Below, piece after piece: positions 24,266-40,716 of a stretch of 53,408 nucleotides of DNA; the stretch's first letter is position 1; the number at the start of each line of letters is the position of its first letter. The position numbers and the translations under genes are program-made. Under the pieces are notes generated by a model, which saw only the letters and a list, made by a program, of their open reading frames with translations, made no database searches and was not told where the DNA came from. The stretch spans positions 1 through 53,408 of the forward strand of contig CABXXB010000004.1 in NCBI GenBank assembly GCA_902516065.1, written 5' to 3'. The DNA is from an uncultured Pelagibacteraceae bacterium. GTDB taxonomy: Bacteria > Pseudomonadota > Alphaproteobacteria > Pelagibacterales > Pelagibacteraceae.

Positions 24266-24294
24266 CTTGAAATAGACGTCGAAATATCTATATG
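24266..24294 (+). promoter_or_regulatory. Candidate RpoH (sigma-32)-type promoter of groESL
   Basis: CTTGAA at 24266-24271 and CTATAT at 24288-24293, i.e. CTTG-N18-CTATAT, close to the alphaproteobacterial RpoH consensus (CTTG-N17/18-CYTATNT) and 37 bp before the groES start. Confidence 0.6.
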
Positions 24295-40176: not shown

Positions 40177-40204
40177 CTTGAAAAAAAAAGATTAGTTCTT
40201 AAAT
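40177..40204 (+). promoter_or_regulatory. Candidate RpoH-type promoter of hsp20
   Basis: CTTG at 40177-40180, 17-nt spacer, CTTAAAT at 40198-40204; near-match to CTTG-N17/18-CYTATNT. Confidence 0.5.
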
Positions 40205-40212
40205 TAAAGTCG

Positions 40213-40264
40213 TAAGCCGCCTAATGGGGCTTATATAAAAAATAAACTTGCTTAACAAAGGAGG
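40213..40264 (+). promoter_or_regulatory. Candidate ROSE-like RNA thermometer in hsp20 5' leader
   Basis: Hairpin 1: TAAGCC(g)CC-TAAT-GGGGCTTA (40213-40233). Hairpin 2: CTTGCTT (40247-40253)-AACA-AAGGAGG (40258-40264), in which UUGCUU faces the Shine-Dalgarno, resembling the ROSE UYGCU/anti-SD arrangement; ATG at 40270. Confidence 0.6.
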
Positions 40265-40269
40265 ATATT

Positions 40270-40716
40270 ATGACAAGTAAGGATCTATCTATATTTAACT
40301 CACTAAGACCTTTTTCAATTGGTTTTGACGACATGTTTGACCAATTCGAAAGTATGCTGGGTAACGGGCATCTAACAATGCAGTCGAACTACCCACCATA
40401 TAATATTAGAAAAACAGGCAAAGATAATTACGCTATTGAAGTTGCTTTGGCCGGATTTTCAAAAAATGATGTTGAGGTTGAGTTTGAAGATAACTTATTA
40501 ACTGTAAGGACTAAACAAATTAATAAGTTAGAGGATAAAAAATCTGACGCAGAAATTATTCATAAAGGAATATCTCAAAGACAATTTGCTAGATCATTTA
40601 CAATTGCAGATGATGTGAAAGTAGGTGAAGCTGAGCTTAAAGATGGTCTTTTAACAATTTCATGTGAAAGAATTATCCCAGAGCATAAAAAGAAAAAACT
40701 TATTGAAATTCAATAA
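40270..40716 (+). CDS. Hsp20/alpha-crystallin small heat shock protein
   Basis: YPPYNIRKTGKDNYAIEVALAGFSKNDVEVEFEDNLLTV; FARSFTIADDVKVGEAELKDGLLTI. Confidence 0.96.
   Translation: MTSKDLSIFNSLRPFSIGFDDMFDQFESMLGNGHLTMQSNYPPYNIRKTGKDNYAIEVALAGFSKNDVEVEFEDNLLTVRTKQINKLEDKKSDAEIIHKGISQRQFARSFTIADDVKVGEAELKDGLLTISCERIIPEHKKKKLIEIQ

Follow-up and report, generated by a model that had tools for sequence, protein, structure and literature searches.

SAR11 bacteria are among the sea's most abundant cells and have genomes of about 1.3 Mb with few regulators; does the leader of one of their small heat-shock genes sense temperature by itself? The window analyzed here, a stretch of 53,408 nucleotides, is part of a Pelagibacter (SAR11) genome and encodes at 40270–40716 a 148-residue protein of the α-crystallin family (hsp20; Pfam HSP20, E 9.8e-18); this and all window features below lie on the plus strand. 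An initial annotation had proposed that the gene is preceded by an RpoH promoter and a ROSE-like RNA thermometer, and the elements that it named (the promoter, two hairpins, UUGCUU opposite the Shine-Dalgarno [SD] sequence and a G-G pair) are all present, exact to the base; the interpretation that it gave is for the most part upheld by the analyses below. They follow each other in the order promoter, hairpin 1, linker, hairpin 2 including the SD, and ATG. The SD, AAGGAGG (40258–40264), is located within hairpin 2, 5 nt before the ATG, and the gap between AGGAG and ATG in relatives is 5–8 nt. The minimum-energy fold of the leader consists of precisely hairpins 1 and 2, with a modest z-score of -2.07. 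For comparison within the genus, 201 genomes were sampled, 155 of which contain hsp20; relatives with this gene bear the names Pelagibacteraceae and Candidatus Pelagibacter ubique.

The putative promoter comprises a -35 element, CTTG (40177–40180), a 17-nt spacer and a -10 element, CTTAAAT (40198–40204). Upon scanning the window for CTTG-N17-CYTANAT, zero mismatches were found solely at 40177–40204, while allowing up to one mismatch gave 11 matches with 11.4 expected, which is chance level; the case for the hsp20 promoter therefore rests on conservation, not on the single sequence. Among 175 distinct upstream regions of relatives, the -35 element is CTTGAAA in 145, CTTG is followed by 17 nt in 164, and the -10 element is separated from hairpin 1 by 7 nt in 149, the -10 having been set by the best match to CCCATAT, which slightly biases these counts to a tidy result. 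The 7-nt gap itself (40205–40211 in the window) is poorly conserved, with information of about 0.4 bit per position, so that the conserved promoter pattern is not mere relatedness. The transcript would be expected to start at or near the end of this gap.

The consensus of σ32 (RpoH) promoters is CTTGAAA at -35 and a CCCATAT-like sequence at -10, and both elements, with 17 nt after CTTG, also precede hsp20 in relatives; compared with these, the -10 element of the window, CTTAAAT, is a weaker form than in most relatives. The hsp20 promoter combines the hallmarks of RpoH promoters, i.e. a CTTG -35, a spacing of 17–18 nt, a -10 resembling CYTATNT or CCCATNT, and conservation. Judged by these sequence features it fits the RpoH type, and it is probably recognized by, and dependent on, RpoH, a factor that the genome encodes (TIGR02392, 360.3 bits, above the cut-off). 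Another promoter of this type is found in the window upstream of groES (CTTGAAATAGACGTCGAAATATCTATAT, 24266–24293; CTTGAAA, spacing 17, TCTATATGA); it is kept in relatives and is associated with no ROSE-like leader. In addition, dnaK of relatives has CTTGTAG-N14-CCTATAT-like sites upstream. The promoter proposed by the initial annotation is thus exact in the window, conserved in relatives and of a type common to groES and dnaK. A search of six genomes with the strict consensus CTTGAA-N14-16-CCATAT returned few sites, with no clear excess over a reversed control; in the upstream regions of groES and dnaK, inspected directly, the -10 is spelled differently from strict CCATAT. Genus g3 shows some departure from the promoter pattern. 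The hsp20 leaders of family f10 (L218–L220) retain UUGCU together with hairpin 1, but their -35 region is TATTGACA-like instead of CTTGAAA, and transcription may therefore be controlled differently in this family.

Hairpin 1 (40212–40234), GUAAGCC-g-CC-UAAU-GG-GGCUUAU, consists of 7 bp, a bulged G (40219), 2 further bp and a UAAU loop (40222–40225). When 95 distinct leaders were aligned by model fitting, 97.9% of its cells were paired (97.5% for both hairpins together), and two-sided changes occurred at six of its nine pairs. Two-sided changed cells number 61 as opposed to 13.2 in shuffles, none of 500 shuffles being as high, and sliding the pairing partners wiped out the covariation signal and gave far worse structures. 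In an independent count on a gene tree with anchored sequences, 994 of 1008 hairpin 1 cells are paired across 117 pair-state changes, in a tree based on one short gene and with an anchoring procedure that slightly favors pairing. Covariation thus establishes hairpin 1 as a real structure. Its core, GCC-UAAU-GG, resembles the Rfam ROSE consensus GCC-UUAU-GGGG. A terminator function of hairpin 1 was ruled out because no U-run follows.

In hairpin 2 (40247–40264), the anti-SD sequence CUUGCUU (40247–40253) is connected via an AACA loop to the SD, and G40250 faces G40261. CUUGCU is without variation in 82 of 82 aligned leaders, amid a linker and a loop that are variable. While the distance from UUGCU to AGGAG ranges from 5 to 10 nt in relatives, the complementary arms and the G-G register are retained, and 96.9% of hairpin 2 cells are paired in the 95-leader alignment. 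In genus g3 the motif reads UCGCU (L200, L202), which fits U(U/C)GCU, an alternation that is the published rule for ROSE elements (PMC3669281). As both strands hardly vary, covariation neither backs nor refutes the hairpin 2 helix. The proposed pairing of UUGCUU with the SD, including the G-G pair, hence stands with regard to motif and register, and of the compensatory changes that were anticipated in the leaders of relatives, many are seen in hairpin 1 and none could possibly be shown for the near-invariant hairpin 2 helix.

Computed folding energies have to be read with care. Hairpin 2 alone is predicted at -2.0 kcal/mol at 37 °C, using nearest-neighbor energies that omit the special non-canonical contacts of ROSE elements. 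Moreover, predicted folds shift with the amount of coding sequence included, the early codons adding rival anti-SD and SD pairings. Temperature curves from ViennaRNA are unreliable, since the result varies with the 3′ end chosen and ROSE contacts are unmodeled. We infer that hairpin 2 forms in the cell and melts.

How close is this leader to known ROSE elements? The Rfam ROSE model (RF00435) aligns end to end at 40213–40276, its sole match in the genome, scoring 22.1 bits where the cut-off is 45 (genome E 0.15), the gathering score being an operational cut-off rather than a defining trait. The covariance check put forward in the initial annotation thus yielded a full-length alignment with a score under the gathering cut-off, and a comparison of the window with Rfam at gathering thresholds gave no match. 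With strict filters, the Rfam ROSE model found no element in 151 genomes of the genus; the model's own control genomes were silent as well, so we regard this blank as a sensitivity limit.

Like rhizobial ROSE (RF00435), the SAR11 element is the leader of an alphaproteobacterial small heat-shock gene, places U(U/C)GCU with a G-G pair opposite the SD, and starts with a conserved first hairpin (GCCGCC-UUAU-GGGGC in the rhizobial element) in a full-length alignment. In contrast to it, the SAR11 leader spans about 60 nt compared with 94 model positions, lacks most of the middle, is AT-rich and contains two hairpins where the rhizobial element has three or four. A leader of just two hairpins is known from Pseudomonas ibpA (PMC3669281), likewise 5′ of a small heat-shock gene, in which hairpin 1 is stable and the thermosensing hairpin 2 sets U(U/C)GCU against the SD; temperature sensing by the SAR11 leader is proposed by analogy. 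The Pseudomonas element is gammaproteobacterial with a G-C-rich hairpin 1, whereas hairpin 1 of SAR11 resembles the alphaproteobacterial Rfam consensus. The leader had been described as unusually short and AT-rich for a ROSE element, which is true relative to RF00435, but the ibpA case shows that the short two-hairpin form is not unique. ROSE-like and ROSE-G elements are also known upstream of ABC transporter genes (PMC11342760, PMC12857270). They share UUGCU or CUGCU opposite the SD with a G-G pair; they differ in their target genes, and ROSE-G is set apart by CUGCU and by bulged Gs that oppose each other. The SAR11 element thus shares with ROSE its position before a small heat-shock gene, U(U/C)GCU opposite the SD in the 3′-proximal hairpin, the G-G pair and a stable upstream hairpin. 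We file it as short ROSE-like, not as classical ROSE, because it scores under the Rfam cut-off and the extra hairpins are missing. No report of ROSE elements or RNA thermometers in SAR11 or Pelagibacter was found in the open-access literature, to which our search was confined, subscription journals being outside its scope; the main text of a 2009 paper on structured RNAs in Pelagibacter mentions neither heat shock nor thermometers.

Among 297 genomes from the order, 220, representing 8 of 11 genera, were matched by a covariance model built from SAR11 leaders alone, and the strong matches examined are all located 5′ of hsp20. Applied to 289 alphaproteobacterial genomes, this model recovered 11 hsp20 loci in total; each of its seven top matches outside the order is directly 5′ of an hsp20 gene, the sequence of which the model had not seen. 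The SAR11 leader is therefore kin to leaders of the ROSE type throughout the class. Weak matches of the R1 model that do not precede hsp20 (L203, L204, L205, L208, L209, L225, L226) were judged to be chance.

Eleven genomes tested that gave no usable leader match also lack hsp20, some of these genomes being incomplete. Several fairly complete Pelagibacterales genomes (G327, G062, G385, G340, G302, G284, G346 and G381) have neither hsp20 nor a usable leader match. This distribution suggests that the hsp20 gene and its thermometer were lost together in Pelagibacterales. In the sister family f2, represented by one hsp20 gene, no recognizable leader was seen.

Model matches also occur at two further kinds of loci. 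In another alphaproteobacterial family, a ROSE-like leader (L223, 1501–1582, minus strand; 28.1 bits) is found directly 5′ of an RpoH (σ32) gene, with a GCC-UAAU..GGG hairpin followed by UUGCUU and AAGGA; this rpoH-linked leader was unconfirmed in two relatives checked. In genus g5, weak model matches (L206 and L207, 1501–1558) precede an ammonium-transporter-like gene, where a short hairpin could sequester the SD (CCUCCUUUAACAAAGGGAG in one, CUUGCUCAACAAGGGAG in the other).

Based on these results, it is in our view highly probable that the hsp20 leader acts as an RNA thermometer of a short, ROSE-like type with two hairpins, stacked on RpoH transcription. The proposal starts from observed features, namely the sequences, their conservation, the pairing of hairpin 1 and the family-wide association with hsp20. 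RpoH would transcribe hsp20 from CTTG-N17-CTTAAAT, and the mRNA would therefore start at or just before hairpin 1, which, with its conserved GCC-UAAU-GG core, would serve as a stable structural element. In the cool, CUUGCUU would pair with the SD AAGGAGG around the built-in G-G mismatch and keep the ribosome off; in the warm, hairpin 2 would open, the SD would be released and Hsp20 would be made. With the thermometer following an RpoH promoter, heat would raise Hsp20 twice, via σ32 and via translation. A response of the leader to heat is expected by analogy: in ROSE elements, the SD hairpin melts on warming while hairpin 1 remains closed (PMC3669281), and melting is the best reading of the SAR11 leader because its anatomy is the same as that of established ROSE elements.

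The first codons of hsp20 raise an alternative to simple melting. Codons 2–5 (40273–40284) read ACA AGT AAG GAT, and AAGUAAG (40275–40281), comprising codons 3 and 4 and the last base of codon 2, can form 7 bp with the anti-SD sequence. CUUGCUU could swap between this segment and the SD AAGGAGG, in which case strand exchange rather than melting would set translation. Indeed, codons 2–4 are near-invariant at the nucleotide level in 122 hsp20 genes. This synonymous freezing spans Pelagibacter and genera g5/g6 and goes against codon bias. Lys4 is encoded by AAG in 119 of 121 cases (98%), as opposed to 20% of other hsp20 lysines and to 5 of 43 start-proximal lysines in the window's other genes, and early lysines of the downstream permease stay AAA; the frozen AGT is less telling because AGT is common near starts. 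AAGUAAG(G) complements both variants of the anti-SD sequence, CUUGCUU and CCUUGCU, over 7 bp. At least seven contiguous anti-SD pairs are possible in 148 of 156 natural sequences and in only about 3% with random synonymous codons, and RNAalifold, run on 49 diverse sequences, prefers the anti-SD:codon helix over the SD helix. However, the frozen codon pattern counts as one event and shows no covariation, and a complement of at least 7 bp to the codons occurs somewhere in about 21% of shuffled leaders, so that complementarity alone is weakly significant. Moreover, genera g3 and g7 lack the codon partner, as do relatives outside SAR11, and the predicted balance depends on the species and on where the 3′ end is set. 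We therefore consider control by exchange instead of melting possible but unlikely. With the same reserve, we only tentatively suggest that in Pelagibacter and near genera the thermometer may reach into the coding sequence, codons 2–4 being held as a second partner of the anti-SD sequence in a two-state strand exchange. Pairing of the hsp20 codons with the 3′ arm of hairpin 1 was also considered and was dropped because hairpin 1 covaries and the codons do not.

A rather doubtful alternative, modeled on what is reported for E. coli IbpA, is that Hsp20 binds its own leader and represses translation until titrated by aggregates, the hairpins serving mainly as a binding site. Repression by IbpA of the mRNA that encodes it depends on R93, and Y34 has also been implicated (PMC10474464); in an alignment, both residues have counterparts in Hsp20 (R104 and Y41), and the core sequence of hairpin 1 is conserved beyond the need of stability. 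Both residues are, however, widespread in alphaproteobacterial IbpAs (PMC10474464), and their presence is therefore weak evidence. Autoregulation would, besides, complement thermosensing and not take its place, and as the counterparts of R93 and Y34 are present, Hsp20 feedback may operate atop thermosensing. Finally, an ordinary structured leader, in which hairpin 1 guards against decay from the 5′ end and hairpin 2 is incidental and weak, would fit the position of hairpin 1 right at the expected 5′ end and the low computed stability of hairpin 2 alone, but such a leader, insensitive to temperature, is very improbable given that CUUGCU is invariant between variable segments, agrees with the established ROSE motif and is seen again 5′ of hsp20 in other families.

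If the preferred reading of the hsp20 leader as a short ROSE-like thermometer is correct, elements of AT-rich genomes that score under the Rfam cut-off have led to an underestimate of the range of ROSE in Alphaproteobacteria, and a model derived from SAR11 leaders recovers more ROSE elements than the current Rfam cut-off does. Direct temperature control of translation would then have survived genome streamlining, family-wide, and a SAR11 thermometer would give a concrete readout of heat stress for ocean transcriptomes.
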